A DNA stretch of 64,000 nucleotides from Paraburkholderia largidicola (GTDB taxonomy: Bacteria > Pseudomonadota > Gammaproteobacteria > Burkholderiales > Burkholderiaceae). Where the stretch lies: positions 2,278,402 through 2,342,401 of the forward strand of contig NZ_AP023176.1 in assembly GCF_013426895.1 (NCBI RefSeq), given 5' to 3'. This document shows, piece after piece, positions 35,401 through 53,835 of the stretch (position 1 is the first letter of the stretch; the number at the start of each line of letters is the position of its first letter). The notes under the pieces were generated by a model that saw only the letters and a program-made list of their open reading frames with translations, did no database searches and had not been told where the DNA came from. Made by a program: the position numbers and the translations under genes.

Positions 35401-35415
35401 GTAAGACTTGTTAAG
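35401..35415 (+). promoter_or_regulatory. NTAAG-N5-NTAAG direct repeat upstream of the efflux regulator gene
   Basis: GTAAGACTTGTTAAG is a direct repeat with a ten-base period on the same strand as the tetR-type gene, 100 bases before its start. It differs in one of fifteen bases from the copy before the two-component operon (38751). The period of one helix turn fits an OmpR-family response regulator. Confidence 0.5.
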
Positions 35416-35515
35416 CCAATGCCGCGTCGCGCCGACTACGATGGCCGCGTGATTCACACGGTCGCTGCGCGGATTGGGGTGCGCGGCGCCGAACGGCAGG
35501 AGAAAGGCACCCGTC

Positions 35516-36169
35516 ATGGGACGAACGAAGCAACAGGCGCTCGACACGCGGGCAAAGATCATCGACGCCGCCGAGCGCGTGTTCTTCGTGCGTGGCTTTG
35601 CGCGCGCCGCGCTGGAAGACATTGCGTCGGAAGCGGGCGTCACGCGCGGCGCCGTCTACGGTCACTTCCGGAACAAGGAGGCCGTGTTTCAGGCGATCTA
35701 CGAGTGCGCGGACATGCCGCTCGATCCATTCGTCGTACAGTCGTGCGAGCAGGACGCCGATCCGTTGCAGCATCTGCACGCGCAATTGCTTCAGCGACTG
35801 CGCGACGCGCTGCATCTGCGGCGCGCGCGGCGGCTGTACAGCATCGCGCTGACGAAGTGCGAAGTGACGGCGGAGACGGCGGCGTTTTACGAGCGTGTCG
35901 CGATGGCCGCGTTGCGCGCCGAAGCGCAGATCGACGCGGCGCTCAGGGCCGCATCGCTGCGCGGACAGTTGCCGCCCGACCTCGATACGCGCGCGGCCGC
36001 CGGCTTCATCCACGCGGCGCTGACCGGGTTTTTGCACAAACGTCTGTTGATGTCGGCCGAGCCGCGCGCCGACCTGGAAGCGGAGCAGACGCTTGCTTCG
36101 GCGCTGAAGTGCGTCGGCGGCGACATGGTGTTCGACGCCATTTCCACAAGCGCCCCGAGCCCGGCATAG
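35516..36169 (+). CDS. bpeR: TetR/AcrR family repressor of the adjacent efflux operon (BpeR-like)
   Basis: A 217-residue regulator. The N-terminal TetR helix-turn-helix spans residues about 10-57 (AALEDIASEAGVTRGAVYGHFRNKEAVFQAIY). The C-terminal ligand domain resembles the TetR_C_2/AcrR-like type and presumably binds pump substrates. The start MGRTKQQALDTRAKI follows GAAAGG by eight bases. It is transcribed divergently from bpeA with 241 bases between, the arrangement seen for bpeR and its pump. A palindrome near bpeA is the likely operator. A direct repeat upstream may place the regulator itself under a two-component system. Confidence 0.9.
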   Translation: MGRTKQQALDTRAKIIDAAERVFFVRGFARAALEDIASEAGVTRGAVYGHFRNKEAVFQAIYECADMPLDPFVVQSCEQDADPLQHLHAQLLQRLRDALHLRRARRLYSIALTKCEVTAETAAFYERVAMAALRAEAQIDAALRAASLRGQLPPDLDTRAAAGFIHAALTGFLHKRLLMSAEPRADLEAEQTLASALKCVGGDMVFDAISTSAPSPA

Positions 36170-36219
36170 GATCTCACGAGCAAAGCGAATCGGCCATCTG
36201 ATCAGATGCGGGTGTGTTA

Positions 36220-36234
36220 CTAAGAATCAGTAAG
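36220..36234 (+). promoter_or_regulatory. NTAAG-N5-NTAAG direct repeat upstream of the small-peptide island
   Basis: CTAAGAATCAGTAAG repeats with a ten-base period, about 200 bases before the 16-codon reading frame and on the same strand. It is part of an AT-rich 409-base stretch between the TetR gene and the M29-like gene. Confidence 0.4.
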
Positions 36235-36386
36235 AATTAAAAGACAGGTACACAACGAGTGTTTGATCGGTGATCGATCTGTATATTGGATGACAGATTA
36301 ATCTGAAACAACCCAACTAAATCTTACAGGGTAAATCCGCATTAAATAATATTCATCTCGAAAAAATCCTCGAATAGACTGGCTGC

Positions 36387-36405
36387 ACACCTTATTTCAA
36401 GGTGT
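36387..36405 (+). other. Hairpin before the small reading frame
   Basis: ACACCTT and AAGGTGT form a perfect 7-base stem with a five-base loop, ending 26 bases before the start of the 16-codon frame. It may be a 5' untranslated structure. Confidence 0.35.
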
Positions 36406-36431
36406 CTTGCAACCCACTATCGAGGCTCAAT

Positions 36432-36482
36432 ATGAAGAATCGAAAGAAGAATGCCGAATATCTCGGCACGCTGCTTGGTTAA
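36432..36482 (+). CDS. Possible 16-residue peptide gene (precursor or leader peptide)
   Basis: An ATG with GAGG six bases upstream opens a short frame encoding MKNRKKNAEYLGTLLG and a TAA stop. The peptide is basic at the N-terminus and hydrophobic with glycines at the C-terminus. It lies 97 bases before a gene for an M29/NicX-like metalloenzyme and azlC-azlD exporter genes on the same strand, with a hairpin in between. It could be the precursor of a small peptide product, or a regulatory leader peptide with the hairpin as attenuator. The ribosome binding site is better than those of the two genes behind it. No homologue is known to me; coding status rests on the start signal and context. Confidence 0.4.
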   Translation: MKNRKKNAEYLGTLLG

Positions 36483-36508
36483 AGCGGAAGCGGCGTAAGT
36501 GAAGCGGG

Positions 36509-36546
36509 GGTTCTGCTTTTCGGGGCATGCAACGAGCGGCAGAACC
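36509..36546 (+). terminator. Attenuator-like hairpin between the small frame and the metalloenzyme gene
   Basis: GGTTCTGC and GCAGAACC form a perfect 8-base stem around a 22-base loop, followed by TTTAATCGTT. It sits 26 bases after the stop codon of the 16-codon frame and 32 bases before the next gene, a place fit for partial termination or attenuation. Confidence 0.4.
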
Positions 36547-36578
36547 TTTAATCGTTCAATTCGTCCGTTTCGATAGAT

Positions 36579-37661
36579 ATGAAATCCATCAATATCAATC
36601 CCTCCCGTATTCGAGCATTTGGACGAGCGACGGAAACCCATTTCGTCGTCGTCACCAACCGGTCATTGAACGAGACGCTCTCGATTGAACAAAACGGTGG
36701 CTATTCGAGCTATCGAACGGTGTTATTCGAACACGGCCAGACATTCGCGGATCTCTTCAAAGACCAGATTCCACCGCGAGCGCATGTACTCGTTATATCG
36801 CCCGATGTATTCTTTCAATCGCCTCCGCAAAATATGCTCGGCGCACACCGGAAATTGCTCGCGATGGCGTGTAACTCGACTCCGACCGATATCGACGCAA
36901 TCAGGCATTTTCTCGCCGTTATTGAAAACACCAATCCCGAGAAGCAGCAAGAACATATAGACCGCTTCTTTGATCTCGGAGAAAAGGCGGATTATCTTGA
37001 GTTTTCGGATGAAAAGAACGGTACGCTCGCCAGATTCAATCATCTGGACGAAAGCTATTTGTGGAGCGAGCAAGCCGGCACACTGGGCGACGGCGAGCAA
37101 CAGTTAGCGCCATCCGGGGAGATCAGCGTCCTGCCGTTGCGCATTCAGGACTTCGAGGAGAACCTGCGACTCGACTTCAACGGCACGATTGCATTGAACG
37201 GAACGCCGATCCTGCACAACGGTACGCCCAGCTTCTTGCGCGCCGATCAGGCGCGCCTGCACGGGCTGTTAAGCAGCATGTCTCACGATGCTGTCATCGC
37301 AACGGTTGAAAACGGCGTGATCACCAGCGTGGGTGCGGATCGTGCTCCCGACAACCCTGCAGTCGCGGCATTGCAGGCCTTATTCGACGTGGATTCCCGC
37401 TACCGGATTCTTTGGGAAATCGGCTTTGGCATCAACACCGAAAGCCGGATCCTGCCAGGCAATCACGCGATGAACGAAACCTATGGCGGCACCGCCGGAG
37501 CGATTCACTTCGGCATCGGCTTGACTCCCTACACTCAGTACCACCTGGACATCATTTGCCCGAACACGACGGTCAAAACCAGTCATGGCGACTACCTGAT
37601 CGGCGGCAAACCGTCATCCATCCACAGAACGCGCGGGGCCGGGTGTCCCTGCCTCGAATAA
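36579..37661 (+). CDS. M29 aminopeptidase-/NicX-like metalloenzyme of unknown function
   Basis: A 360-residue cytosolic protein. The last 100 residues match the COG2309 fold shared by M29 aminopeptidases and 2,5-dihydroxypyridine dioxygenase NicX. Candidate metal or catalytic residues are Glu280 (WEIGFGINTESR), Glu300 (MNETYGGTAG), His310 (AIHFGIG) and the His322-x-Asp324 pair (YHLDII). The His in AIHFGIG favours the peptidase-like branch; this is inference from motifs. The N-terminal half is poorly conserved and lower in GC than neighbours. There is no clear ribosome binding site. The C-terminus ends in CPCLE. The azlC-azlD exporter genes follow after 16 bases, so the product or a by-product may be an exported amino acid or small peptide. 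Confidence 0.6.
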   Translation: MKSININPSRIRAFGRATETHFVVVTNRSLNETLSIEQNGGYSSYRTVLFEHGQTFADLFKDQIPPRAHVLVISPDVFFQSPPQNMLGAHRKLLAMACNSTPTDIDAIRHFLAVIENTNPEKQQEHIDRFFDLGEKADYLEFSDEKNGTLARFNHLDESYLWSEQAGTLGDGEQQLAPSGEISVLPLRIQDFEENLRLDFNGTIALNGTPILHNGTPSFLRADQARLHGLLSSMSHDAVIATVENGVITSVGADRAPDNPAVAALQALFDVDSRYRILWEIGFGINTESRILPGNHAMNETYGGTAGAIHFGIGLTPYTQYHLDIICPNTTVKTSHGDYLIGGKPSSIHRTRGAGCPCLE

Positions 37662-37677
37662 CACGTCATATCAGTCA

Positions 37678-38388
37678 ATGAAATCGTCCATATTGCGCGT
37701 GCTTCCTGTCGGGCTTGCGTTGGCGCCAGTCGGCATCCTGTTCGGGGTTCTCGCGGAACAAGCCCATTGGAGCGCAGCGGGGGTTTTTCTACTAAGTGCA
37801 ATCGGCTTCACAGGAAGCGGGCAGTTCGCGTTCCTTGCGTTCTCCCAGCAAGGCGCTGCATCCACGGGGATGCTCGCTATTTTCCTCGTGATTTTAAGCA
37901 TGAATCTGCGCTACATCCCCATGTCCCTTTCGGCCTCGCAGCCGCTAAAGATCTCCGCCCCGTGGAAACTCTTGCTCGCCCACTGTCTTGCCGACGAGTC
38001 ATACGCGACTGAGCGAAACACCGATGATCTCAAGTCGCGCGTCGTCATACGCATGGGTATCTTTCTCTTCTGGATCGCCTCCACCGTCGCGGGCTGTGCT
38101 TTGGCCAGTTTTTTGCCGGATTCGGTGAGCAATGTTCTAACCGGGCTGACGTTCCCGGTCAGCGCGATTCTGTTTGCGCTGAGCTTCATGAACGTCATGC
38201 ATTACGTTATCGACTCGCGAACGCGTTTGCGCGAATCGGGTACACGTTGCGTCATTGCTATCCTTATCTGCCTGTTGATTTCAGTCGCTCTGGTTGCGAT
38301 ATTCGGCGAGAAATATTTCTGGATACCCAGCATTTTATTGTGCTATCTGGTTCTGACCAAGTATGGGAAGCATCGTGTCAATGAATGA
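37678..38388 (+). CDS. azlC: AzlC family branched-chain amino acid exporter, large subunit
   Basis: A 236-residue inner-membrane protein with about seven hydrophobic segments, matching AzlC/YgaZ. The conserved opening GLALAPVGILFGVLAEQAHW and the block SAIGFTGSGQFAFLAF are visible. With AzlD it exports branched-chain amino acids or analogues; E. coli YgaZH exports valine and methionine. It follows the M29-like gene by 16 bases and overlaps azlD. There is no good ribosome binding site, which suggests coupling to the upstream gene. GC is lower than in the surrounding window. Confidence 0.88.
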   Translation: MKSSILRVLPVGLALAPVGILFGVLAEQAHWSAAGVFLLSAIGFTGSGQFAFLAFSQQGAASTGMLAIFLVILSMNLRYIPMSLSASQPLKISAPWKLLLAHCLADESYATERNTDDLKSRVVIRMGIFLFWIASTVAGCALASFLPDSVSNVLTGLTFPVSAILFALSFMNVMHYVIDSRTRLRESGTRCVIAILICLLISVALVAIFGEKYFWIPSILLCYLVLTKYGKHRVNE

Positions 38389-38695
38389 AGAAATACTGGC
38401 GGGCATTGCCATCCTGTTTGCCGTGAGCGTTATCGTTCGCATCGCACCGACGTTCTCAAACCTGAATCTGTCGGCGCAAGCGAGTTTCGATATCAAGAAC
38501 ATTCTGCCTATTGCGGTGCTCATCAACCTTCTTGTCTATTGCGTGGTCAGTGAACTGCATCACGACAGTATTGCAGCCGTAGCCGGATTTACAGTACTTG
38601 GCATGATGATCCTCTCGCAGCGAATCAATCTGCTGGTTATGGTCGTACTCGCATCCGTTACGTATATCGCAGCAGGGAACGGGTTCCACGGTTGA
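38381..38695 (+). CDS. azlD: AzlD family branched-chain amino acid exporter, small subunit
   Basis: A 104-residue membrane protein with about four short hydrophobic helices, partner of AzlC. The chosen ATG overlaps the azlC stop codon in ATGAATGA and has GGGAAG ten bases upstream; another ATG lies six codons earlier. The N-terminus MNEEILAGIAILFAVSVIVRIAPTF fits the family. The usual pair of prolines near the end of the first helix is reduced to one, an unusual but tolerated change. Confidence 0.82.
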   Translation: MNEEILAGIAILFAVSVIVRIAPTFSNLNLSAQASFDIKNILPIAVLINLLVYCVVSELHHDSIAAVAGFTVLGMMILSQRINLLVMVVLASVTYIAAGNGFHG

Positions 38696-38750
38696 CGGAA
38701 GGAAAACTGTTAGAGCCGCGTCGTTCAGGCAATGTCGGACCTGCGGGCTT

Positions 38751-38765
38751 GTAAGACTTGCTAAG
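38751..38765 (+). promoter_or_regulatory. NTAAG-N5-NTAAG direct repeat upstream of the two-component operon
   Basis: GTAAGACTTGCTAAG has a ten-base period, 116 bases before the response regulator gene and on its strand. Near-identity to the copy at 35401 suggests autoregulation plus control of other genes by the same regulator. Confidence 0.55.
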
Positions 38766-38881
38766 TCGCCCGAACCGGGGCCGCGCAGCGTTGCGCTATA
38801 GTCATACGCACATCCGATACCTGGCGGCAACGACGCAGCCCCGCCCAACGCGGCAAAGCGCCGGCGCAGCCTGCTCACATC

Positions 38882-39652
38882 ATGCCCGACACGCCCATCC
38901 AGGTGCTGCTCGTCGACGACGACGCCGACCTGCGCGACCTGCTTCGCAATTTCTTCCAGCAACGCGGCATCGAATTCTCGGTGCTGCACGATGCCACGCA
39001 TCTCGCGCGCAGACTCGAGCGCGAGCGTCCGTCCATCATCGTGCTCGACCTGATGATGCCCGGCGTCGACGGACTCACGGCGCTCAAGCAGTTGCGCGCC
39101 AGCGGCGACACGATTCCCGTCGTCATGCTGACGGCGCGCGCCGATGGCGTGGACCGCGTGATCGGCCTCGAACTCGGCGCGGACGACTATCTCGGCAAGC
39201 CGTTCATGCCGCAGGAATTGCTCGCGCGCATTCATGCCGTGCTGCGCCGCCATCAGCTGCATCCCGAAGCGCCCGCCACCGAGCATCGCGAGGCGCTCGT
39301 GTTCGGCCGCTTCCGGTTGGACTTCGCATCGCGCACGCTCTTTCGCGACAACGAACCCGTCAAGCTGACGGGCAGCGAATATGCGCTGCTCGAAGTGTTC
39401 GCGCAGCATCCGATGGAAACGCTGTCGCGCACGCGCATCGTCGATCTGCTGCATGGGCCGGATTCGGAAGTGACGGAGCGCGGCATCGACGTGCCCGTGT
39501 GGCGGCTGCGGCGTCTGCTCGAGGACGATCCCGCTGCGCCGCGCCGCATCCAGACGATGCGCGGCATCGGCTATATGTTCGTGCCGGGCGAAGGCGGTGA
39601 AGTCGACGACGGCGGCGACGACAGCGAAGGCGACGACAGCGCATCGCAATGA
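38882..39652 (+). CDS. OmpR-family response regulator
   Basis: A 256-residue cytosolic transcription factor. The receiver domain (residues about 6-118) has the acidic pocket DDDAD, the phospho-acceptor Asp56 (IIVLDLMMPGVDG) and Lys near PFMPQE. The C-terminal winged helix (about 145-240) contains FARHPMETL-like and LSRTRIVDLLHG regions and ends with RIQTMRGIGYMFVPGEGG. An unusual acidic tail (GGDDSEGDDSASQ) extends past the DNA-binding domain. The stop codon overlaps the kinase start as ATGA. It resembles RstA/OmpR-type regulators. It likely binds the ten-base-period direct repeats found at several promoters in this window. Confidence 0.92.
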   Translation: MPDTPIQVLLVDDDADLRDLLRNFFQQRGIEFSVLHDATHLARRLERERPSIIVLDLMMPGVDGLTALKQLRASGDTIPVVMLTARADGVDRVIGLELGADDYLGKPFMPQELLARIHAVLRRHQLHPEAPATEHREALVFGRFRLDFASRTLFRDNEPVKLTGSEYALLEVFAQHPMETLSRTRIVDLLHGPDSEVTERGIDVPVWRLRRLLEDDPAAPRRIQTMRGIGYMFVPGEGGEVDDGGDDSEGDDSASQ

Positions 39653-40902
39653 AAAACCCGTTCAATACGCTGTTTGGCCGTCTCGCGACGCTGACGGTCG
39701 GTCTGATCGTGGCCGTGCACGTGACGTCGCTGTTCGTCGTCGATCGCGATCGCGGCCATATCGACGCCGAGCACGCGCGCCGCGACGTGCTGCTGGCCGT
39801 GCAGGCCAAGCACGACGGCGACGCAGCCGCTACGCACGTCGCGCAGACGCTCGGCATCGAATATGTCGCCGATGCCGATGTGATCCGCCTGGGCTGTCCG
39901 AACCAGTGCCAGGGCTCCGACGCGCCGTTCGAGCACGATCTGTTGCCGCGCCTGCCCGCAGACAGCCGCGTCGTGTTCGATCCGCACACGGGCTCGTTGT
40001 GGGTACGGTACGGCAACGAGCCGTACTGGCTCTTCATGCGCAATGCGAATCTGCCGGGCATGCGCTTTCTCGGCTCGTCGCTGGTGATGCTGGTGCTGGC
40101 CGTTTGCGCCGCGCTGCTGGCCGCGTGGCAGTTTCAGCGGCCGTTGCACCGGCTGGCGGACGCGGCGCGCGAGTTCAGGATCGGCCGGCGCGTGCCGCCC
40201 GTGACGGCGAGCGGTCCCGCTGAAATGCGCGCGCTGATCGGCGACTTCAACCAGATGATGCGCGAGCTCGCGCAGTCCGAGCAGGAGCGCGCCGTGATGC
40301 TGGCGGGCGTCGCGCACGATCTGCGCGCGCCGATCACGCGCATGCAGGTGCGCGCGGACCTGCTGCCCGACGCGGCGAATCGCAGCGGCTTCCTGCGCGA
40401 TGCCGAGTCGCTGTCGCGCATCGTCACGCAGTTTCTCGACTATGCGCGCGATACGGCTGATCCGTCACCGCACGCGAACGTCGATGCGCATTGCCGCCGT
40501 CATTATGGCGACGGACTCGACGACGAAGCACTCGTGCGTCTGCATCTGAATGCGGGCGATGGCTTCAATCTGCCGCTCGTGGACCTCGACCGGATACTGT
40601 CGAACCTGATCGAAAATGCGATGAACTACGGCGAGCCGCCCGTCGAGATTTCGACGTCCGCGCATCACGGGGTCTACACGCTGATCGTTCGCGATCATGG
40701 CCCGGGCATTCCGCGCGAGCAACTCGAACGCGCGCTTCAGCCGTTCACACGGCTCGATCCGGCGCGCGGCGGCGACGCGCATTGCGGCCTCGGCCTCGCG
40801 ATCGTGCGGCGGCTTACGCGCTACAACGGCGGACAGTTCGAATGCGATAACGCCCCCGATGGCGGGTTTCGCGTGACGCTGACGTTCGGGCGCGAAGCCT
40901 AG
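39649..40902 (+). CDS. Sensor histidine kinase, partner of the OmpR-type regulator
   Basis: A 417-residue membrane kinase. TM1 is about residues 10-30, the periplasmic sensor about 31-140, and TM2 about 143-163 (SLVMLVLAVCAALLAAW), followed by a HAMP linker, a HisKA domain with phospho-His223 (LAGVAHDLRAPITRM) and a HATPase domain with N-box NLIENAMNYG, G1 DHGPGIP and GLGLAIVRRL. The small periplasmic domain holds a CPNQC pair (Cys83 and Cys87), which could bind a metal or sense thiol redox state. The adjacent RcnB-like gene makes an envelope or metal signal plausible. Confidence 0.92.
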   Translation: MKNPFNTLFGRLATLTVGLIVAVHVTSLFVVDRDRGHIDAEHARRDVLLAVQAKHDGDAAATHVAQTLGIEYVADADVIRLGCPNQCQGSDAPFEHDLLPRLPADSRVVFDPHTGSLWVRYGNEPYWLFMRNANLPGMRFLGSSLVMLVLAVCAALLAAWQFQRPLHRLADAAREFRIGRRVPPVTASGPAEMRALIGDFNQMMRELAQSEQERAVMLAGVAHDLRAPITRMQVRADLLPDAANRSGFLRDAESLSRIVTQFLDYARDTADPSPHANVDAHCRRHYGDGLDDEALVRLHLNAGDGFNLPLVDLDRILSNLIENAMNYGEPPVEISTSAHHGVYTLIVRDHGPGIPREQLERALQPFTRLDPARGGDAHCGLGLAIVRRLTRYNGGQFECDNAPDGGFRVTLTFGREA

Positions 40903-40935
40903 CGGCGCGTTTCTTGTCACGCAGCGTCGCAAACG

Positions 40936-40962
40936 AAATGCCGCCCACGACGGGCGGCATTT
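40936..40962. terminator. Bidirectional terminator between the kinase and RcnB-like genes
   Basis: AAATGCCGCCC and GGGCGGCATTT form a perfect 11-base stem with a five-base loop and a T run on both strands. It lies between two convergent genes and serves both. Confidence 0.9.
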
Positions 40963-40969
40963 TCATGAA

Positions 40970-41389
40970 TCAACGATGCGGCGCGAGCAGGATGCTCGAA
41001 ATCACGCCTGTCGCGATCGCGGCGAGCACGAAGTCGCCATTGACCTGCACCCATTGATAACCCGACGGCGGCGGCTGAAGATCGTGCCCACGCCAGTCGT
41101 CGACGACATATTGCGGACCGCGATAGTCGGGCGGCAAGCGGTCGCCGCGATGCCAGTCGCGGTGCGGCACCGGACGATGCGATGCCTCGGCGCGGACCGG
41201 GCCGCCAGCGCGTTGCGGCCCACCGGGGCCACCAGGACCGCCGGGACCATCATCGGGACCACCGCGCTCGTCGGCAGCGGGATGGCGGCCCGGGCCGCCG
41301 TCATCGCCCGGCGCGTATTGCGCGAACGCCTGAGTTTGAGCAACGGCACACGAAGCAGCAAGCAACAATACAGATACGACTTTTTTCAT
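40970..41389 (-). CDS. RcnB-like periplasmic protein
   Basis: A 139-residue secreted protein. A Sec signal peptide ends near QTQAFA-QY (about residue 23). The middle is a low-complexity Gly/Pro/Arg/Asp region with several GGP repeats. The C-terminal 55 residues carry the RcnB pattern: GDRLPPDYRGPQYVVDDWRG, then LQPPPSGYQWVQVNGDFVLAAIATGVI. RcnB is a periplasmic factor of nickel/cobalt homeostasis in E. coli; many Burkholderiaceae homologues are uncharacterised. GGGGGAG precedes the ATG. A perfect GTAAG-N5-GTAAG repeat on the same strand lies about 60 bases upstream, suggesting control by the nearby two-component system. Confidence 0.82.
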   Translation of the reverse strand: MKKVVSVLLLAASCAVAQTQAFAQYAPGDDGGPGRHPAADERGGPDDGPGGPGGPGGPQRAGGPVRAEASHRPVPHRDWHRGDRLPPDYRGPQYVVDDWRGHDLQPPPSGYQWVQVNGDFVLAAIATGVISSILLAPHR

Positions 41390-41447
41390 CAAACACTCCC
41401 CCAAATAAAGTGAGAGTGTTTTCCGGCGCAACGATTCAAACGGCGTC

Positions 41448-41462
41448 CTTACTGTGTCTTAC
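41448..41462 (-). promoter_or_regulatory. Perfect GTAAG-N5-GTAAG repeat upstream of the RcnB-like gene
   Basis: Read on the minus strand the site is GTAAGACACAGTAAG, the most exact copy in the window, 59 bases before the RcnB-like start codon and pointing towards it. Confidence 0.6.
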
Positions 41463-41471
41463 AGGCCGCTT

Positions 41472-42641
41472 TTAGCCTTGCTCCACAGGCAGTTCGAGAC
41501 GCGCCAGCTCCGCGAAATATCGCGCGCCCGTCAGCAGGATATCGTCGTTGAAATCGTAGGTGGCGTTGTGCAAGGGCACGCCGCCCTTCTCCGCCGACTC
41601 ACCATTGCCGATGAAGATAAAGTTGCCGGGAACGGCCTGCAGGAACGCGCCGAAGTCTTCGGAGATCATCATCGGCGGCACGTCGGCATCGACGTGTTCC
41701 GCGCCCGCGATATTGCGCGCCGCGCTCACCGCCACATCGACGCATTGCGCGGAGTTCACCGTCGGCGCGAACTCGTGCGTGTATTCGAAGGTGCAATCCG
41801 CACCATGTGCCCGGCAGATGCCTTCGCTCACTTCACGCATGCGCGTTTCGAGCAGCGTCTGCACTTCACGCGAGTAACTGCGCGTATCGCCCTTGATGAC
41901 CACGTTCGACGGGATCACGTTTCTGAGTCCATCCGTTATGAACTCCGTGCAGGAGATCACCGCTTGAAGACCCGGATCGAGATTGCGTGACACGATGGTT
42001 TGCAGCGCGAGCACGATCTGCGATGCAACGACGATGGGATCGACGCCCATATGCGGACGCGCCGCATGCGTGCCGCGCCCCTTGATGTGAATGACGAAGT
42101 TGTCTTCGCTCGCCATGATGCCGCCGGCGCGCGTCGCAAATGTTCCTGCACGCATGCCGGGCATATTGTGCGCGCCGAAAATGGCGTCGACGGGAAAGCG
42201 CTCGAACAGTCCATCCGCCATCATCGCCTTCGCGCCGCGTCCGTGTTCTTCGGCGGGCTGGAAGATGAAGCGCACCGTGCCGTTGAAATCGCGTCGCTCG
42301 GCAAGCAGTCGCGCTGCGCCGAGAATCATCGACATATGCCCGTCGTGTCCGCAAGCATGCATCTTTCCCGGCGTACGCGAAGCATGCGTGCGCGCGGGCG
42401 CGTGCTCCGTGATGTTCAGCGCGTCCATGTCGGCACGCAGGCCGATTGCACGTTTGCCGCTGCCGACCGTCAGGTTCGCAACCAGCCCCGTTCCGCCGAT
42501 GCCGCGATGCACGTCGAGCCCCAGAGTCGCAAGAATGTTCGCGACATAGTCGGACGTGTCGACCTCTTCGAAACCCGTCTCGGGATACTGATGCAGATGT
42601 TGGCGCCAGTTCTTCAGTTGTCCCTGCAGCGTGCTTTCCAT
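41472..42641 (-). CDS. M20 family amidohydrolase (hippurate/N-acyl-amino acid hydrolase type)
   Basis: A 389-residue cytosolic metallopeptidase-like hydrolase that cleaves N-acyl or aminoacyl amide bonds. Metal ligands of the M20D group are visible: Cys and His in KMHACGHDGHM, Glu-Glu in FQPAEEHGRGAKAM, His in GAHNMPGM and a late His in VPLHNATYDFND. The lid domain in between mediates dimerisation. The start (MESTLQGQLKNW) lies 37 bases after the diaminopropionate ammonia-lyase gene, with which it likely forms an operon. A joint role in using N-acylated or oxalylated diamino acids or similar compounds is possible (inference). Confidence 0.9.
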   Translation of the reverse strand: MESTLQGQLKNWRQHLHQYPETGFEEVDTSDYVANILATLGLDVHRGIGGTGLVANLTVGSGKRAIGLRADMDALNITEHAPARTHASRTPGKMHACGHDGHMSMILGAARLLAERRDFNGTVRFIFQPAEEHGRGAKAMMADGLFERFPVDAIFGAHNMPGMRAGTFATRAGGIMASEDNFVIHIKGRGTHAARPHMGVDPIVVASQIVLALQTIVSRNLDPGLQAVISCTEFITDGLRNVIPSNVVIKGDTRSYSREVQTLLETRMREVSEGICRAHGADCTFEYTHEFAPTVNSAQCVDVAVSAARNIAGAEHVDADVPPMMISEDFGAFLQAVPGNFIFIGNGESAEKGGVPLHNATYDFNDDILLTGARYFAELARLELPVEQG

Positions 42642-42678
42642 TTCGGTTGTCCTTGTCGTTCGGGTTCGTGTGCGCCGG

Positions 42679-43899: not shown

Positions 43900-44069
43900 C
43901 CGTTGTTGCTCCAGAAATCGGACCGCTTCGGCGGTCCGTTGATCAAAACTCGGCGTGCTTATGCGCAAAGCCCTGATGAAATGATATTGCGCAACACCAT
44001 CAATAAAGTCTCGAAGTTTGGCGTTATCGTGCAAAAATATCTCTTACATAACGGCCCCGACGCGAAACC

Positions 44070-44549: not shown

Positions 44550-44553
44550 CGCC

Positions 44554-46023: not shown

Positions 46024-46551
46024 ATGTCGCTCGCAGCCATCATTCACGGCACGCCCATCTGGGTTTGGGTACTGCTCGCCTACCTGCTTTCGCGCGGGTT
46101 CAAGGCCATGAACAGCGGCACCGCGCCGCTTTCCCGCCTCGCCATCGTGCCGCTCGTCTTCACGGTCTGGGGCATTGCGCACCTGGTAACCGACCCGCTG
46201 ACGGGTTGGGCCGATGCGATCGTCTGGGTAGTCGCCGCGCTGGTGGGCGTCGCGGCTGGCGTGTTCATGGCGAGCCGCACGCGCTTCATCGTCGATCCGA
46301 TTGCGAACACCGTGATGCTGCCCGGTTCGATGCTGCCGCTGGCGCTGATCGTCATCACCTTCGCAACCAAGTTCTGGCTCGGCGTCGAATTGGCGACGGC
46401 AACCAGTCTCGCGTCGCTCGGCACGTATATGTTGATCAGTGCAGCCGTATCGGGCGCCGTCGCAGGCATGTTCGGTGGCCGCTTCCTGACCTACTGGCGA
46501 GCCATGAGCGCGCGCCGCATTCTCCGGACCTGTTCGCAGCAAGGCGCGTAA
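46024..46551 (+). CDS. Small hydrophobic membrane protein (DUF6622-like)
   Basis: A 175-residue inner-membrane protein with four to five hydrophobic segments. The opening IIHGTPIWVWVLLAYLLSRGFKAM, with a Trp-Val-Trp motif after TP, is typical of an uncharacterised proteobacterial family I recall as DUF6622. AAGGAG precedes the ATG by six bases. The C-terminus is basic (RRILRTCSQQ) and probably cytosolic. No catalytic residues are apparent and no function is known to me. Confidence 0.75.
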   Translation: MSLAAIIHGTPIWVWVLLAYLLSRGFKAMNSGTAPLSRLAIVPLVFTVWGIAHLVTDPLTGWADAIVWVVAALVGVAAGVFMASRTRFIVDPIANTVMLPGSMLPLALIVITFATKFWLGVELATATSLASLGTYMLISAAVSGAVAGMFGGRFLTYWRAMSARRILRTCSQQGA

Positions 46552-46690
46552 GCGAGGCACCAGCGGAAGCGGGCACGTCCGTTGCGACCCACGATTCCGA
46601 CGAAATATCGCCAAACTTGTTACTCCCAGCGTCCGCTTTCCGGGTCCAGACTGTCTCACGGCAAGCAACGCGCGATGAACAACCACCGAA

Positions 46691-46716
46691 GCCGCGCCTC
46701 ATCCCCGAGGCGCGGC
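46691..46716 (+). terminator. Strong hairpin before the DUF899 gene
   Basis: GCCGCGCCTC and GAGGCGCGGC form a perfect 10-base stem with a six-base loop. It lies 140 bases after the membrane-protein gene and just before the AGGAGG of the DUF899 gene. There is no T tract, so it is either a terminator or a structured leader. Confidence 0.45.
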
Positions 46717-46747
46717 AACGCGTTCAAATCAGGAGGTCGCAAGCGCC

Positions 46748-47533
46748 ATGACTACATCGGACGAAAACGGAAGCAACAGCGGACAACGGGCGATGCGCAC
46801 ACCACCCGTCGTATCGCAGCAGGAATGGGAAACCGCGCGCGAGCAGTTGCTCGTGAAGGAAAAAGCCCACACGCGCGCCCGCGACGCGCTCGCCGCCGAG
46901 CGCCGCCGCATGCCGTGGATGGCCGTCGACAAGTCCTACGCATTCGAGGGACCATCGGGCAAGCTCAGTCTGGCCGATCTGTTCGACGGGCGGCGTCAAC
47001 TGATCGTGTATCGCGCGTTCTATGAACCGGGCGTGTTCGGCTGGCCGGAGCATGCGTGCCGCGGCTGCTCGATGGTGGCCGACCAGGTCGCCCATGTCGC
47101 CCACCTGAACGCCCGCGATACGACGCTCGTATTCGTTTCGCGCGCGCCTCAAGCGGACATCGCCCGGTTGAAGGCGCGCATGGGCTGGCAGATCCCCTGG
47201 TTCACGATCACGGATAGCTTCGACACCGACTTCGGCGTCGGCGAATGGCACGGCACGAACGTGTTCTATCGCGACGGCAACCGGATTTTCCGCACCTACT
47301 TCATCAACAATCGCGGCGACGAGCAGATGGGCGGCACGTGGAACTATCTCGACATCACACCGCTTGGCCGGCAAGAGGTCTGGGAAGATTCACCCGAAGG
47401 CTATCCGCAGACGCCGACCTACAAGTGGTGGAACTGGCACGACAGCTATGTCGACGACGCGCCGCCCGACAGGAAGTGGGTCGAGGTGTCGGATGCGGGC
47501 GAGGCGGCGTTCAGGAACAAGCCTCAGACGTGA
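46748..47533 (+). CDS. DUF899 thioredoxin-like protein
   Basis: A 261-residue cytosolic protein of the DUF899 family, distantly related to thioredoxin/AhpC folds. Family marks are VVSQQEWETAREQLLVKEKAHTRARDALAAERRRMPW at the N-terminus and the redox-like CRGC motif (PEHACRGCSMVADQ), followed by IARLKARMGW and the C-terminal YLDITPLGRQEVWEDSPEGYPQTP. The biochemical role is unknown; a redox function is suggested by the CxxC. AGGAGG lies 11 bases before the ATG. The gene converges on the DUF4136 gene with 13 bases between. Confidence 0.9.
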   Translation: MTTSDENGSNSGQRAMRTPPVVSQQEWETAREQLLVKEKAHTRARDALAAERRRMPWMAVDKSYAFEGPSGKLSLADLFDGRRQLIVYRAFYEPGVFGWPEHACRGCSMVADQVAHVAHLNARDTTLVFVSRAPQADIARLKARMGWQIPWFTITDSFDTDFGVGEWHGTNVFYRDGNRIFRTYFINNRGDEQMGGTWNYLDITPLGRQEVWEDSPEGYPQTPTYKWWNWHDSYVDDAPPDRKWVEVSDAGEAAFRNKPQT

Positions 47534-47546
47534 GCGCCGGTGCAAG

Positions 47547-48149
47547 TCACCTGTCGATCTGTTTCACCGTGACCACTTCGGGCCCACGCGCCGCTTCGCC
47601 GTTGCGCAGCTTCACGCGCCAGCTTCCATATCCGGCAAACGGAAACTGCGCAAACGCGCTTTTGACGAGCCACGGTATGGGATGCAGCACATCGGCATTG
47701 CGGTCGCGGCTCGTCGCGATGACCTTGTAGACTTCCTTGCCGGTCGCGGCGTCGAAGAGGCGCAAGGTCATCGAATGCTGATACTCGCGCCCGAACAGCG
47801 AGAAGCCGGGCTTCGCGACGCCATTGCAGGCTGAATCCGCGCAGTCGCCCGCGATCACGCCGACGGCGGCCGGCCGCGTATCGTACGCGAGCGAGAGCAT
47901 ATAGCTGGCGCGCTCCGCCGATCGATCGACCAGCCCGTAATTGCCCAGTTCGCTGTGAATCAGCGCCTCGTACTGCTCGCGGGCGGCGCCCGTTTCCTGC
48001 GACGGCGTCTGCACGATCGCATAGGTGCGCTCGCCCTGCAGCACGACGGGCGTTCCCGACACCTGAACGTCCGTCGTCACGCCCGCGCATCCTGCGAGAC
48101 CCGCCACGCTCGCGACAACGACAGCGGCACCACCTAGCGTCTTCTTCAC
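47547..48149 (-). CDS. DUF4136-type lipoprotein
   Basis: A 200-residue envelope lipoprotein. The signal ends at GLAGC-AGVTTDVQ (Cys21). The mature part matches the DUF4136 pattern found in many uncharacterised outer-membrane-associated lipoproteins: ERTYAIVQTPSQE, then LIHSELGNYGLVD and SMTLRLFDAATGKEVYKVIATSR. It ends in VVTVKQIDR. It lies 56 bases downstream of the CHASE2 kinase gene on the same strand and may be the last gene of that operon. The function is unknown. Confidence 0.82.
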   Translation of the reverse strand: MKKTLGGAAVVVASVAGLAGCAGVTTDVQVSGTPVVLQGERTYAIVQTPSQETGAAREQYEALIHSELGNYGLVDRSAERASYMLSLAYDTRPAAVGVIAGDCADSACNGVAKPGFSLFGREYQHSMTLRLFDAATGKEVYKVIATSRDRNADVLHPIPWLVKSAFAQFPFAGYGSWRVKLRNGEAARGPEVVTVKQIDR

Positions 48150-48205
48150 GTTCTTCTCGCTTCGATCGAATACAGATTCATGTGCGCATGGCGCGCCCGG
48201 GTTAT

Positions 48206-50653
48206 TCAGGCGTTCGTCTCATCGAGCGCGGGCAGCGTGATCGTGAACGCCGTGCCCTGCCCGAGCGCGCTTTCCACGTGCACGTCACCGCCGTGCCGCG
48301 TCACGACCGCCTTCACGAACGCCATGCCGAGCCCCGTCCCCGTGGCCTCGGGCCGTTCGACTTCGTGAAAGCGCTGAAACCGCTCGAACAGATGCGCCTG
48401 GTTTTCGGCCGACATCCCGTAGCCTTCGTCGCGGACCGTGCAGCGCACGCGCGCCGGCCATTCGCCCGACGCAGGCGTATCCTGCGCGACCGTGCACGTA
48501 ATACGCGTTTCGGACGGACTATATTTCACCGCGTTGTTCAGAATATTGACGAGCGCGCGCGTCATCAGCGAGCGGTCCGCGTTGATCCAGTGGCCGTCGC
48601 CCTGTTCGTCGTACGCGGCTTCGAGGCGAATGTGCCTCGCTTGCGCCTGCGGCCACACTTCATCGCTTGCGTCGATCACGAGTTCGACGAGACTCACGGG
48701 TTCGAACGTATAAGCCTGCGATTCGGCGCGCGCCAGTTGCACGAAATCGTCGGCGAGCATCAAGGCCCGCTGCGCGTATCGCTCGACGCGGTTCAGCAAT
48801 TCGCGCAGACGTTCGGAGTCGGGCGTGCGCGCGCGTTCGAGTTCGACGAGCGCGAGGATCGATGCCTGCGGCGAGCGCATATCGTGCGACAGCAGACGCA
48901 GCGCATCTTCACGCAGCCGTTCGGCCGCATGCACGGCCGTCACATCGACCAGGCCCGCAATCCATCCGGTCACCGCGCCTTGCGCATCGGTGCACTTCGC
49001 ATAACGCAACAGATGATCGCGCTGGCTGCGATCGCGTACCTCGATGCCCCGCTCCATCATCTCCGTGAACGCGATGCGGCCGGGATCGAGCAGTGCGGGC
49101 CAATGCGCGCGTCCGAGCGCATCGGCCTCCGCGTGGGAACCGATCGCCTTCATGAACGCGAGTTCACCGAGCACGTGGCGCAGTTGCATGCCTTCGGGTG
49201 TCGCCGCGCCGAGCCGCTCGAAATACGTCTTCGCCGCGTGGTTCGCAATCAGCACGACACCGTGCACGTCGCTGACGAGAATCGGCTCCGGCACGCTATC
49301 GAGGCTGTTCCACACGAAGCGCTTCATGTCCTGCACGCGCCGCGCCGCCTGCGCCATCAGCGCCATCTGCTGGGCGAGCGCGTCGCCGCGAAATTCGCGG
49401 CTGCGTTGCGGCGCTTCGGGCAACAGATACGGCTCGTCAGCAAGGCGCTGCAGTTCCTTGCGCAGATACGACATCGTCATTTCGAGCCGCCGCCAGTTCC
49501 AGATCGGATAGACGGCAGCCAGTCCGACGATCGCGGGCACGGGCGACATCCACAGCCGCATGCCGTACAGCAGCGCCGCGCTGAGACCCAGCATCGATGC
49601 GCACAGCACGACCGTCATCAGCAGCGACCGCAGCGGCGACAGCACGAGCAGGCCCGCGAGCAGCACGCCGAGCGGCACCAGCGACACAGCGAACACCCAC
49701 AGTCCGTTGACGGGATCGATGGCGCGGCCCGTCACGAGCGTATCGAGCACGTTCGCGTGAATGTAGACGCCGGGCAGCGGCCCGAGCCGGCCGGACACAG
49801 GCGTCGAGAACCTGTCGTAGAGTCCCGAGGCCGTCACGCCGATCAGCACGATCTTGCCGCGCAGCGAGTCGCGCGGCACCTCGCCCGCAAGGACGCTCGC
49901 GAACGACACCTTCGGATACGTCTGCGCGAGCGGGCTGAACGGAATCAGCACGCGTTCTTCGTCATTGCCCTTCATGGCGGTGCGGTCGGGCACTTCCGCG
50001 GCGGCGCTCGCGGAATGCGGCAGCCTCACCGCGCCGCCCTTGATCGCGCGCCATACGGGCACCATCAATTGCGGCCAGCGCATCTGCGCGTCGCCTTCGA
50101 ACAGCGCGACACTGCGCACGATGCCGTCGGCATCCACTTCGAGATTGATGTGGCCGAGTCCCGCAGCGGCGCTCGCGAGCGGCTCGACCGGCTTGACGGC
50201 GACACGCTCGCCGTTGGCATCTTCGGGAGACAGGAGAATCGGCAGATACGTCGGCGTCGCGGCGATCGCGCGTGCCAGTTGCGCGTCGTCTGGCGCGGGC
50301 TCGGTGAACAGCACGTCGTAGACCACGGCCGCCGGCTGGGCCTTCGCGATTTCGTCGAGCAGTTGCGCATGCACGGCGCGCGGCCAGGGCCAACGGCCGA
50401 GCCGCGCAATGCTCGCATTGTCGATTTCGACGACGGCGATATCGGGCAGCACCGGTTGTGCACGCAAGCGCAGGAAGCCGTCGTAGACGAGATGATCGAC
50501 GCTCGCCGTCAGCCTGCCGAGCGAGCCGGCCAGAATCACCAGAATGCCGAGGCAGCCGATGCACAGCCATTCGAACAGGAAGCGGCGCCCGACTGGCCGC
50601 CCAAGACGTATGCGCGGATCGAAACTCATGCGCGGGCCGCTGGTGGTCATCAC
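48206..50653 (-). CDS. CHASE2-domain sensor histidine kinase
   Basis: An 815-residue membrane kinase. An N-terminal helix (about 25-45) leads into a long extracytoplasmic CHASE2 domain (about 45-330, with PDIAVVEIDNASIARLGRWPW), then about three membrane helices (about 335-400), a PAS domain (about 445-560), a HisKA domain with His590 (LSHDMRSPQASIL) and a HATPase domain with NILNNAVKYSPSE, RDEGYGMS and GTGLGMAFVKAVV. The start overlaps the FecR-LysM gene by four bases, and the regulator gene is first in the operon. The signal is unknown; the partner with a LysM domain suggests a cell-wall cue. Confidence 0.92.
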   Translation of the reverse strand: MMTTSGPRMSFDPRIRLGRPVGRRFLFEWLCIGCLGILVILAGSLGRLTASVDHLVYDGFLRLRAQPVLPDIAVVEIDNASIARLGRWPWPRAVHAQLLDEIAKAQPAAVVYDVLFTEPAPDDAQLARAIAATPTYLPILLSPEDANGERVAVKPVEPLASAAAGLGHINLEVDADGIVRSVALFEGDAQMRWPQLMVPVWRAIKGGAVRLPHSASAAAEVPDRTAMKGNDEERVLIPFSPLAQTYPKVSFASVLAGEVPRDSLRGKIVLIGVTASGLYDRFSTPVSGRLGPLPGVYIHANVLDTLVTGRAIDPVNGLWVFAVSLVPLGVLLAGLLVLSPLRSLLMTVVLCASMLGLSAALLYGMRLWMSPVPAIVGLAAVYPIWNWRRLEMTMSYLRKELQRLADEPYLLPEAPQRSREFRGDALAQQMALMAQAARRVQDMKRFVWNSLDSVPEPILVSDVHGVVLIANHAAKTYFERLGAATPEGMQLRHVLGELAFMKAIGSHAEADALGRAHWPALLDPGRIAFTEMMERGIEVRDRSQRDHLLRYAKCTDAQGAVTGWIAGLVDVTAVHAAERLREDALRLLSHDMRSPQASILALVELERARTPDSERLRELLNRVERYAQRALMLADDFVQLARAESQAYTFEPVSLVELVIDASDEVWPQAQARHIRLEAAYDEQGDGHWINADRSLMTRALVNILNNAVKYSPSETRITCTVAQDTPASGEWPARVRCTVRDEGYGMSAENQAHLFERFQRFHEVERPEATGTGLGMAFVKAVVTRHGGDVHVESALGQGTAFTITLPALDETNA

Positions 50654-52044
50654 CGTGCCAGTGTAAATGAGCGGATCGCGCTGCCCTTCTGGTAGAGCCG
50701 GCCGTTGTCGAACTGCTCGGCGATCACGGTCCAGTAGTAGACGCCCGGCGGCAGATCGGAGACCACGATCTGCCCCGCCGCGAGATCCGTGCGATCGACC
50801 AGCGGCTCGCGCAGATCGGCCGTCGTCGCCAGCACGAAGCGGAAGCGGGTCTCGACACCCGTGCGGCTCGCGAGCCAGCGGAACTCGAAGTCACGGCTGC
50901 CGGCACGCGGCCCGGCGGAGACATCGAGTCCAAACTGCCGGCGCTCGAACGCGTAGGTTTGCGGCAAGCCTTCGAGTCCCATGCCGTCGATCGATGCAAT
51001 GCGCACGAAGTAGTTGCCGTCAGGCAAGTCGGCGAACGTTGCGTGCGGCAGGTTCACGCGCTGGTCGCGGATCAGGTCGAACAGATCGGCGTCACGCGCG
51101 ATCTGCACGCGGTAAGCGCGGGCGTTCGCGGCGGGCACGAGATCGAAGGCGATCTCCTTGTCGTCCTGCACCTTGCCCGGGTCCGCGAGTGCGGGCGCGG
51201 GCAGCAAGGCCACCGGTGCGCCGACGCCGCCCGTCGAACGCGTGACACTGCCGAAATGCGCGCCAATCAGTTGCGTCGATGCCTGCAACGGCACGCCCGG
51301 TGCGCGCGGCGGCATGCGCGCCGCATCGACGCCGACCGCGCCGTCGAGCACGGCGACGGCGGTCGATTGTTCGTCGCCGTCGTAGCTCACGCGAAAGCGC
51401 GTGCCGCGCACGCCCGCCACCACGGACGGCGATCGGATCTGGAAGCGATCGTCCTTCTTCGTCGCGTGGTCGACCTCGCTGTCGACCTCGCCCCGCTTCA
51501 GGTCGATCACGCGATCTTTCGCGCCTGTCAGCACAGTCTGCCGCAGCGCGCCGATTGCGATCGTGCTGTCCTGCGGCACGGACACATGCGAGCCGTCATC
51601 GAGTTCCAGCGTGACGAAGCCGTTGTGACCCGTCTGCAGACGGTCGCCTTCGACGAGCACCATGCCAAGCGTGACGGGCGCGAACGGATTCTGCCTGAAT
51701 GCATGTGAGGCTGGACCACTGACGGCGACCACGCGCGCCGACCGGGGCTCCTGCTTCAGCAGCGCGATGGGCAAACGCAACTGCACGCCGGGCTGAAGAT
51801 GCAGCGGATCGGCGACATGATTCAGCTTGCGCAATACGGCCCAGTCGCGCGGATCGCGCAGATAGCGATCGGCGACGTCGTACAGCGTGTCGCCGGGCCG
51901 CGTCATGTAGATCGCCGTTGCCGGCGTTGCATGCGCATTGGATGACTGCGCGTTCGAGCTGGCAGGCAGCAGGCTCGACGCCGCGACCAGACACGCGATG
52001 ATGCCGAAAGCGCGCCGCGCCGCCCACGATACAGCCACCGTCAC
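50650..52044 (-). CDS. Secreted LysM-FecR domain protein
   Basis: A 464-residue exported protein. After a signal peptide ending around residue 33, a LysM domain (about 45-95, TRPGDTLYDVADRYLRDPRDW) should bind peptidoglycan. A FecR domain follows (about 120-245), with QTGHNGFVTLELDDGSHVSVP and SPSVVAGVRGTRFRVSYD. The C-terminal 200 residues form two fibronectin-III-like modules. In this family arrangement the gene is coupled to a CHASE2 kinase and regulator. It may act as a periplasmic signal-transmitting or surface-sensing partner of the kinase. Its ends overlap both neighbours by four bases. Confidence 0.88.
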   Translation of the reverse strand: MTVAVSWAARRAFGIIACLVAASSLLPASSNAQSSNAHATPATAIYMTRPGDTLYDVADRYLRDPRDWAVLRKLNHVADPLHLQPGVQLRLPIALLKQEPRSARVVAVSGPASHAFRQNPFAPVTLGMVLVEGDRLQTGHNGFVTLELDDGSHVSVPQDSTIAIGALRQTVLTGAKDRVIDLKRGEVDSEVDHATKKDDRFQIRSPSVVAGVRGTRFRVSYDGDEQSTAVAVLDGAVGVDAARMPPRAPGVPLQASTQLIGAHFGSVTRSTGGVGAPVALLPAPALADPGKVQDDKEIAFDLVPAANARAYRVQIARDADLFDLIRDQRVNLPHATFADLPDGNYFVRIASIDGMGLEGLPQTYAFERRQFGLDVSAGPRAGSRDFEFRWLASRTGVETRFRFVLATTADLREPLVDRTDLAAGQIVVSDLPPGVYYWTVIAEQFDNGRLYQKGSAIRSFTLAR

Positions 52045-52739
52045 GCATCCCCCTTTTCGATCCGTTCCAGCCGGTAGCCGTAGCCATAGATGGGAGTCAA
52101 GCGATAGCCGTGTTCAGGGCGCAGGCCGAGCTTGGCGCGCAGCATCGACACGTGGGTGTCCATGGTGCGCGATGGAATGTCGACGTCCTGACGCCAGATC
52201 GCTTCGAGAATATGCGCGCGCGACAGCGGCTGGCTCAGATGCCGGAAAAACAGCAGCGCGAGTTCGAACTCTTTTTGCGTCAGCGTGACGGGCGTGCCGC
52301 GCGCGACGACCTGTTTCGATCCCAGCTCGAACTCGAATTCCCCGAAGCTTTCTTTTGTCGCCATCTGGTTGAGTTGATAGGCGCGGCGCAGCAGCGATCG
52401 CACGCGGGCAAGCAGCACGCCCGTTGCAACGGGCTTCACGACGTAGTCGTCCGCGCCCTTGTTCAGCATCGATGCGATGTCCGTTTCGCGGCTGCGGCTC
52501 GTCATGAACAGCACGGGTAGACGATCGGACAGGCTCTGACGCACCCAGTGCAGCACCTCTTCGCCCGACATGTCGGGCACGTTCCAGTCGAGCACCAGCA
52601 GGTCGAAGGTCTGGCGGCGCAGATGCTTGACGAGCGCGCGGCCTTCGGCGAACGCATGGCAATCGTGGCCATCGACGGCCAGCGACTGGCAGACCAGATC
52701 GGCTTGCGCCACGTCATCGTCCAGGACTGCAATTCTCAT
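52041..52739 (-). CDS. OmpR-family response regulator of the CHASE2 system
   Basis: A 232-residue transcription factor. The receiver domain has the acidic pair in LDDDVAQ, phospho-acceptor Asp51 (LLVLDWNVPDMSG) and Lys in VVKPVATG. The winged helix (about 135-228) contains TQKEFELALLFFRH, HVSMLRAKLGLRPEHG and YGYGYRLERI. The start MRIAVLDDD is preferred over an ATG four codons earlier. It is the first gene of a three-gene operon with four-base overlaps, so regulator, LysM-FecR protein and kinase are made together. Target genes are not evident from the sequence. Confidence 0.92.
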   Translation of the reverse strand: MRIAVLDDDVAQADLVCQSLAVDGHDCHAFAEGRALVKHLRRQTFDLLVLDWNVPDMSGEEVLHWVRQSLSDRLPVLFMTSRSRETDIASMLNKGADDYVVKPVATGVLLARVRSLLRRAYQLNQMATKESFGEFEFELGSKQVVARGTPVTLTQKEFELALLFFRHLSQPLSRAHILEAIWRQDVDIPSRTMDTHVSMLRAKLGLRPEHGYRLTPIYGYGYRLERIEKGDA

Positions 52740-52839
52740 AGATCCCCGCACGCGAAATCATTCATCGGGCCAACAGAGCAAGCGCGGCTGGGCTCGCTCC
52801 GTGGACAGGCCGGCGCGATCGCCATGCCGGCTGTCGCGC

Positions 52840-53241
52840 CTACGCTTGCGCGCCGTTCAAGGCCACCACGTCATCATCACCGTTATCTTTCGACCGCAGA
52901 TGCGCGGTCAGCGCCGCCTCGAGATGAAGCCGCACGTGCTCCCAGGCAGCGTGCGCGTAGTCCGGCTCGCGCGCCGCCCACTCTTGCGCGAGGCCGAACA
53001 CGCGGCGAACCGTCGATGCGCAATGCGTCAGCCCCGTATTGCCGCCTGCCGCGGAATCGCGCAGCCATTCGGCCAGCCACGGCATCTCGGACGCACACGA
53101 ATCCGCATACGCCTCGGTGGCCGCGCGCGCGTGCGAATCGCTCGCAGGATCGAGTTCGATCCGCTGCGGATAGCCGCTGCGTTTGCGCGTGCGTTTGCCC
53201 GTCTTGAACGGAATCCGCGTGGTGCCTGGTCTGAAAAACAT
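52840..53241 (-). CDS. Hypothetical protein
   Basis: A 133-residue soluble protein that I do not recognise. GAGGGATCGG directly before the ATG supports the start (MFFRPGTTRIPFKTGKRTRKRSG), which is rich in basic residues. The rest is mostly helical, with several Trp residues (EMPWLAEWLRDSA, EWAAREPDY, AWEHVRLHLEA), and ends with DDDVVALNGAQA. GC and codon use match the region. It lies upstream of the regulator operon on the same strand. Confidence 0.6.
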   Translation of the reverse strand: MFFRPGTTRIPFKTGKRTRKRSGYPQRIELDPASDSHARAATEAYADSCASEMPWLAEWLRDSAAGGNTGLTHCASTVRRVFGLAQEWAAREPDYAHAAWEHVRLHLEAALTAHLRSKDNGDDDVVALNGAQA

Positions 53242-53835
53242 CCGATCCCTCGATATGCAACGACGATTCAGATCCACTGCGCCGACTTACCCCGTTTGCC
53301 CGCGAATCGCCATCCGGCATCAACGTTTTTCAACAATTGAGAGGGACAGTATAAAAAGAGGGCGCAATAAAATCATTTAAAGATTGTCAGATCGTGGTGC
53401 GCGCCCTGCCAGGAGGTTGCTGGTTGGTCTCCTCCCGCTGTCATGCTGCTGTCGTACTTCACCCCGTTCGATTTGTAAATTGGCATGCAAGACTTTGTAA
53501 GCCTCTCATTCATCATTCCATGAAGGAATGTGAAGCGCCGATTCTCCCTGATTGCTGCCTTTTGAATTCTGACCGGCTCGATCGAAACCGTGTCCGTACT
53601 ATATGAGATTCATCGCTTGAAAACTTTTAGCAATTGTCAAGTCATGACAACGCTTGAAAGGGAAGGCATTAAAAATGCACTTCATGCGACCGGAAATTTA
53701 ACTAACATTATTTGGCAAACTGGCTCGCGCCATTTTGGTAGTCTGCCGATGTGCCAGCCGTGCAAGGTGGTAGTGAAAAGGCGCTGCAACGAATCGCAGC
53801 TTGAGCAATGCCAGCTGAAATGCGAGGGGTTCATC
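53242..53835. promoter_or_regulatory. AT-richer intergenic region with a direct repeat and an inverted repeat
   Basis: This 594-base stretch is lower in GC than the rest and holds no credible gene. GCAAGACTTTGTAAG (53487-53501) is a weaker copy of the NTAAG-N5-NTAAG repeat found near 35-41 kb. TTGTCA-N5-TGACAA (53634-53650) is an inverted repeat. Either may regulate the small gene downstream. A TATAAA element lies at 53350. Confidence 0.4.

Follow-up and report, generated by a model that had tools for sequence, protein, structure and literature searches.

A putative GTAAG-N5-GTAAG operator of an OmpR-type two-component system beside an AcrAB/BpeAB-like efflux pump in Paraburkholderia largidicola and its relatives

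Direct-repeat boxes are recognized by the regulators CpxR (GTAAA-N5-GTAAA) and PmrA (CTTAAG-N5-CTTAAG). We analyzed a 64,000-nucleotide stretch of P. largidicola (assembly GCF_013426895.1, contig NZ_AP023176.1, positions 2,278,402 to 2,342,401 of the forward strand; hereafter the window), in which a comparable repeat, GTAAG-N5-GTAAG, lies beside the genes for an OmpR-type two-component system (TCS) and a resistance-nodulation-division (RND) efflux pump. The CpxR and PmrA boxes are likewise direct repeats of 10 or 11 bp; the half-site here is GTAAG with a 10-bp period, and the window regulator scored far below the NCBIfam cut-offs for CpxR and PmrA. The window TCS has the same domain architecture as Escherichia coli OmpR/EnvZ and the RisA-type systems of Burkholderiaceae. 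OmpR and EnvZ were the best NCBIfam matches of the window regulator and kinase, but neither cut-off was reached (276.9 bits against 331 and 186.4 bits against 415, respectively), and the solved structures nearest to the regulator were general OmpR-family proteins. The recognition helix of the window regulator, TERGIDVPVWRLRR, also differed from that of the RisA type, TDRGIDVQVWRLRR (DVQVWRLRR), which was found in the 7 RisA-type proteins compared, of 45. OmpR uses tandem 10-bp half-sites (PMC7380067).

Within the open PMC literature, the TCS-RND system of Burkholderia that comes closest is that of DzrR. The DzrR-DesABC/RND-8 module is reported from Dickeya, Ralstonia and Burkholderia, and DzrR, like the regulator proposed here, acts through a direct-repeat operator to control an RND pump in Burkholderia; it is 52% identical to AdeR, and its box consists of two CTCCAT repeats 11 nt apart (PMC10052836, excerpts). 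With at most one mismatch allowed, neither the window nor the pump promoters of L160, a locus on a 1.1-Mb replicon of B. cenocepacia, and of 35 orthologous loci contained such a CTCCAT pair (the 35 loci were located via the response regulator in named genomes of Paraburkholderia, Burkholderia and Trinickia); the sole match lay at 9161 in L101, beyond the kinase. The RND protein and adaptor of L160 (1065 and 418 aa) have the published lengths of BCAS0592 and BCAS0591, so that this pump is most likely RND-1, whereas the pump of DzrR is RND-8. Judged from the same excerpts, both regulator type and box rule out DzrR as the regulator at this locus. AgrR of Cupriavidus metallidurans is another OmpR-family regulator of Burkholderiaceae and is similar in its positive autoregulation and activation-positioned box, but that box is an inverted repeat (consensus ATKACANNNNTGTMAT), the function is silver resistance and the target is not this pump (PMC7380067, in the part available). 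The TCS controlling penL in B. thailandensis was rejected as a candidate on account of its different cis element (PMC9426598, excerpts). BpeAB-OprB/BpeR and B. cenocepacia RND-1 have the same pump and repressor type as the window locus, and the text examined from PMC4396416, PMC2753365 and PMC8300704 names no TCS for these pumps; in a review, the regulator of RND-1 is entered as N.A. and essential oils are its sole listed substrates, and in one study its deletion is reported to have had no phenotype. Among the listed matches to searches of open-licence PMC articles for regulator and operator, the passages available contained no description of the present box, although one may exist elsewhere in print.

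Scanning for TAAGN6TAAG (TAAG-N6-TAAG, that is, GTAAG-N5-GTAAG with its 10-bp period) gave exactly 4 matches in the window, against an expectation of 0.11 from dinucleotide shuffles, of which not one in 100 reached 4. All four were intergenic in the window's list of open reading frames (ORFs) and adjoined the genes named in the original prediction, which had placed direct repeats at 35401, 36220, 38751 and 41462-41448. Box A (35401..35415, + strand, exact match 35402-35415; GTAAG-N5-TTAAG) lies between mfp (acrA/bpeA-like, - strand) and tetR (+ strand), box B (38751..38765, + strand, exact match 38752-38765; GTAAG-N5-CTAAG) in the response regulator promoter, box C (41448..41462, - strand, exact match 41461-41448; GTAAG-N5-GTAAG) upstream of an rcnB-like gene, and box D (36220..36234, + strand, exact match 36221-36234; CTAAG-N5-GTAAG) at the left end of a peptide island. 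When one mismatch was allowed, the window gained only 53488 (GCAAGACTTTGTAAG) and 58019. The former had been put forward as a fifth, weaker site at 53487; it was lost in G019 and kept only in G041 and G042, with no matching region found in the stretch from G052, and was not counted. In the whole genome (9.47 Mb, 5 contigs), TAAGN6TAAG occurred 24 times and the stricter GTAAGACNNNNTAAG 3 times, all 3 inside the window within 6.1 kb; by arithmetic from the rate of 24 per genome, about 0.015 would be expected in that 6.1 kb. The GTAAGACNNNNTAAG string was also present in 27 of 117 genus genomes, mostly as a single copy and away from this locus, so the string alone is not diagnostic. No weight was given to a division of the 24 genome sites into intergenic and coding ones, since the simple gene call used was unreliable and put box A inside a read-through ORF.

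Conservation in orthologous promoters, a comparison that had been proposed along with the repeat, bore it out: the putative OmpR-type operator was kept at the TCS, tetR/RND and rcnB-like promoters. At box A the block GGCTGCCGTAAGACTTGTTAA[GT]CCA was invariant in 7/7 aligned sequences, and the box ended in TTAAT rather than TTAAG in 6 of the 7 (TTAAG was also found in L158 and L162). Both half-sites of box C were kept in 6/6 aligned sequences. In near relatives that are free of the island, a third half-site precedes box B, giving the triple [CT]TAAGA[CT]TT[GC]GTAAGACT[CT]GCTAAG. The 35 orthologue loci contained 47 N6 TAAG pairs, distributed over 32 of them, and no other spacing in the range 0 to 20 occurred more than 6 times; in this count triple boxes are entered twice, L083 and L084 partly coincide on one contig, and a few pairs, in L097 and L106, stand away from the TCS. 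The same scan of 45 RisA-type loci yielded one N6 pair. The histidine kinase was matched in 34/35 loci, RND permease plus adaptor in 28/35 (all 28 with a box), and TetR in only 10/35. Loci of the window clade and of the P. tropica/bannensis group had the box in the tetR-mfp intergenic region, and those without a TetR match, B. cenocepacia included, had it in the mfp-response regulator intergenic region; near relatives also had it at the rcnB-like gene. Gene order thus shifted between loci and the box stayed with the pump or the TCS. Because it recurs at matching places in related Paraburkholderia and Burkholderia, the box is probably the landing site of the regulator.

To describe the position of the boxes relative to promoters, 73 boxes from these loci (a TAAT end being allowed, and the downstream box of triples being used) were clustered by downstream sequence into 24 clusters, and a -10-like word was defined as a TANNNT conserved within the cluster 5-50 nt downstream of the box. 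Such a word was present in 18/24 clusters, and in 17 of these 18 it stood at 11, 21, 31 or 41 nt, as expected of a helix-phased activator. In the controls, 3/12 fell in that phase on the opposite side of the boxes and 5/59 for single TAAG words. No P value is claimed, since the clusters are related by descent. At the mfp promoter the word stood at 11 nt with CTAAGC-type boxes and at 21 nt with GTAAGTTTC-type boxes (Burkholderia, P. podalyriae and others), at the tetR promoter at 21 nt, and at the response regulator promoter at 31 or 41 nt. In the window, the putative -10 words are TACGAT (35437..35442, + strand), 21 nt after box A and conserved in its cluster of 10 sequences, for tetR, and TATAGT (38797..38802, + strand), 31 nt after box B and invariant in 7 aligned sequences, for the TCS operon. 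Box C had no phased -10-like word. A family-wide search found a box with a -10-like word at 11 nt in 3 of 299 genomes.

The helix of the regulator accompanied the box. TERGIDVP[VI]WRLRR was found in the 24 orthologues compared (the window and 23 of the 35 loci). Furthermore, a paralogous regulator of the window genome (G000:C1:3348188-3348922; helix RDRSLDVPIWRLRR) shares DVP[VI]WRLRR. Of 30 paralogue loci fetched, 29 were parsed, and in 23 of these GTAAG-N5-GTAAG preceded the paralogue's own gene, at a distance of 645-646 or 655 nt from the helix codon. N6 pairs numbered 46 in the paralogue loci, and every other spacing from 0 to 16 occurred at most once. As helix and box co-occur, the box can be assigned to a DVP-helix subfamily of regulators.

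From the anatomy, conservation, spacing and phasing of the boxes, all directly observed, and from their association with the loci of the regulator and of one paralogue, we infer that the OmpR-type regulator encoded at 38882 uses GTAAG-N5-GTAAG as its operator, with local targets, and we put the probability of this at about 0.77. The locus would then probably be a local, autoregulated TCS-RND efflux module. In the mechanism we propose, the regulator, presumably in its phosphorylated form, would bind the boxes and activate rather than repress transcription, the signal probably being a pump substrate or envelope stress. Its targets would be its own operon and the adjacent RND pump operon and/or the gene for the TetR repressor of the pump, with the rcnB-like gene in near relatives and the inserted peptide/AzlCD island in two genomes as further putative targets. 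The original prediction had tied efflux control, the rcnB-like gene and the island into one response; the boxes at the TCS promoter, between tetR and the RND genes and at the rcnB-like gene agree with it, and that of the island is backed by two carriers only.

Several observations weigh against this assignment. Genome-wide, TAAG pairs numbered 12, 24 and 38 for N5, N6 and N7, with no excess of N6 over the neighboring spacings, so that a broad regulon, as had been supposed at first, is not supported; the signal is a local cluster and not a genome-wide motif. One further box of the window genome, whose spacer string is identical in four near relatives, is located between fliE and fliF. Three of the 35 loci (L085, L105 and L112) had no box and no pump match either, L105 despite the same kind of helix; four others (L082, L091, L092 and L106) had a box and no RND match in the locus DNA, so the pump is not always adjacent. 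RcnB was matched in only 3/35 loci, and loci of the P. tropica/bannensis type had no exact box at the response regulator promoter. Six of the 29 paralogue loci had no box at that position despite the DVP helix. As for phasing, 6 of the 24 clusters, that of rcnB included, had no conserved -10-like word, the one out-of-phase cluster (47 nt) was the window's own island box, and the clusters, sharing descent, are not independent events.

The direction of control is the point at which a different reading fares best. The boxes could repress or, in loci bearing tetR, could affect the pump only through tetR, which we consider possible though rather doubtful. The box does face tetR, with the -10-like word 21 nt away, in the window clade as well as in the P. 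tropica/bannensis group, and an mfp-facing box with its -10-like word at 11 or 21 nt is found in loci without a TetR match. However, mfp shares the intergenic region with tetR and may respond too, and the boxes lie 11 to 31 nt upstream of the -10 word, which resembles the positions of activators of the OmpR family. It is less likely still that the boxes are bound mainly by the paralogue, or by both regulators, so that the local TCS would not be their sole regulator. The paralogue, with the same box at its own promoter and the shared DVP[VI]WRLRR, could cross-bind the efflux boxes. But the efflux boxes accompany the orthologous TCS in 32/35 loci through changing gene orders, and the box of the paralogue has its -10-like word at 33 nt in the window genome and G041, out of phase with the others. 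That the boxes are chance matches in intergenic DNA is highly improbable: the lack of a genome-wide N6 excess would fit such an origin, but the local density, the conservation, the spacing spectrum and the phasing with its controls do not.

The preferred reading, control of the boxes by the regulator at 38882, would provide AcrAB/BpeAB-like pumps, a family that most likely includes B. cenocepacia RND-1, with a concrete operator and a candidate for their regulator. The 10-bp phasing together with the small difference in the helix (DVP against DVQ) offers a handle on DNA recognition in the OmpR subclass. A wider scheme, which we regard as speculative and unlikely in its entirety, is that one operator class (GTAAG-N5-GTAAG) ties together two paralogous sensor systems, its readers being OmpR-like regulators whose helix has DVP[VI]WRLRR. 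Within one of the two systems the operator would have been re-pointed in the course of evolution, to the pump where no tetR is adjacent and to tetR where it is present, and in two genomes an unrelated peptide/M29-like/AzlCD export cassette with its own box would have entered the operator array and so been captured by the efflux regulator.

The OmpR-subclass response regulator (38882..39652, + strand) had Pfam Response_reg (PF00072) and Trans_reg_C (PF00486) domains above the cut-off, and its gene overlaps, within the same operon, that of the EnvZ-like sensor histidine kinase (39649..40902, + strand; HAMP, HisKA, HATPase_c). The RND permease of the AcrB/BpeB type (HAE-1; 30881..34039, - strand) and the periplasmic adaptor of the AcrA/BpeA type (34054..35274, - strand) scored above the cut-offs of TIGR00915 and TIGR01730, respectively, and the AcrR/BpeR-like TetR-family regulator (35516..36169, + strand) had TetR_N and TetR_C_2 domains. 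Permease, adaptor and TetR all matched an AcrAB/BpeAB-type pump with a divergent TetR, and the P. largidicola record AP028202 names the same genes BpeR, BpeA and BpeB, with OprB next in line. The small RcnB-domain protein (40970..41389, - strand; PF11776 above the cut-off) is encoded downstream of the TCS and convergent with it. Between mfp and tetR we noted by eye an inverted repeat, GTGTTG-ATC-CAACAC (35317-35331), most bases of which were kept in the alignment; it is perhaps a candidate TetR operator.

The island of peptide, 360-aa protein, AzlC and AzlD (36124..38747, + strand) occupies the interval from tetR to box B. Compared with locus L158, which is free of the island, homology ended at 36123, within the 3' end of tetR, and restarted at 38748, at the operator repeat; the nearest relatives examined were without the island. 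It therefore looks like an insert, a late addition to the locus and not a founding member of the module. Its ORFs (36434-38695) are a 16-codon ORF (MKNRKKNAEYLGTLLG), the gene for the 360-aa protein, and then AzlC and AzlD. The 360-aa protein had no Pfam or NCBIfam match; some sources label its relatives in Verminephrobacter, Cystobacter and Frankia as M29 family metallopeptidase or leucyl aminopeptidase. Its gene was present in 2 of 144 genus genomes, the window genome and G019 (P. azotifigens by protein match), and among 398 sampled family genomes, a sample evidently without G019, only in that of the window. Box D and the four bases after it (CTAAGAATCAGTAAGAATT) were identical in G019 amid poorly conserved flanks, and box D had no -10-like word in the 11/21/31/41 phase. 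The island may be under the same control as the efflux module.

Outside the cluster, three spacer strings recurred in all four near relatives (G041, G019, G042 and G052), two at the paralogue TCS and one at fliE-fliF, and a fourth, beside rplM, recurred in three of the four; for G019, G042 and G052 this is recurrence of the string, not of its position. The fliE-fliF site (GTAAGGCGCCGTAAG; L014, G000:C1:3532572) lies between the divergent genes. At the paralogue locus of the window genome (L076, G000:C1), a second box (GTAAGGCAAGGTAAG; 10330-10344, - strand) stands past the kinase gene between convergent genes, where no target gene was found; its string, too, is present in the four near relatives. 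In the window genome the 11-bp-period TAAG pairs (N7) outnumbered those of 10-bp period, and many end in TTAAG; they resemble the PmrA/QseB-type box and may belong to another regulon. Finally, the leader of the rcnB-like gene (41391-41422, - strand) can form a hairpin in which the Shine-Dalgarno region is paired (-15.2 kcal/mol, z -2.0; an equal or better fold in 8 of 200 shuffles), with arms conserved in six aligned sequences, a possible translational switch.

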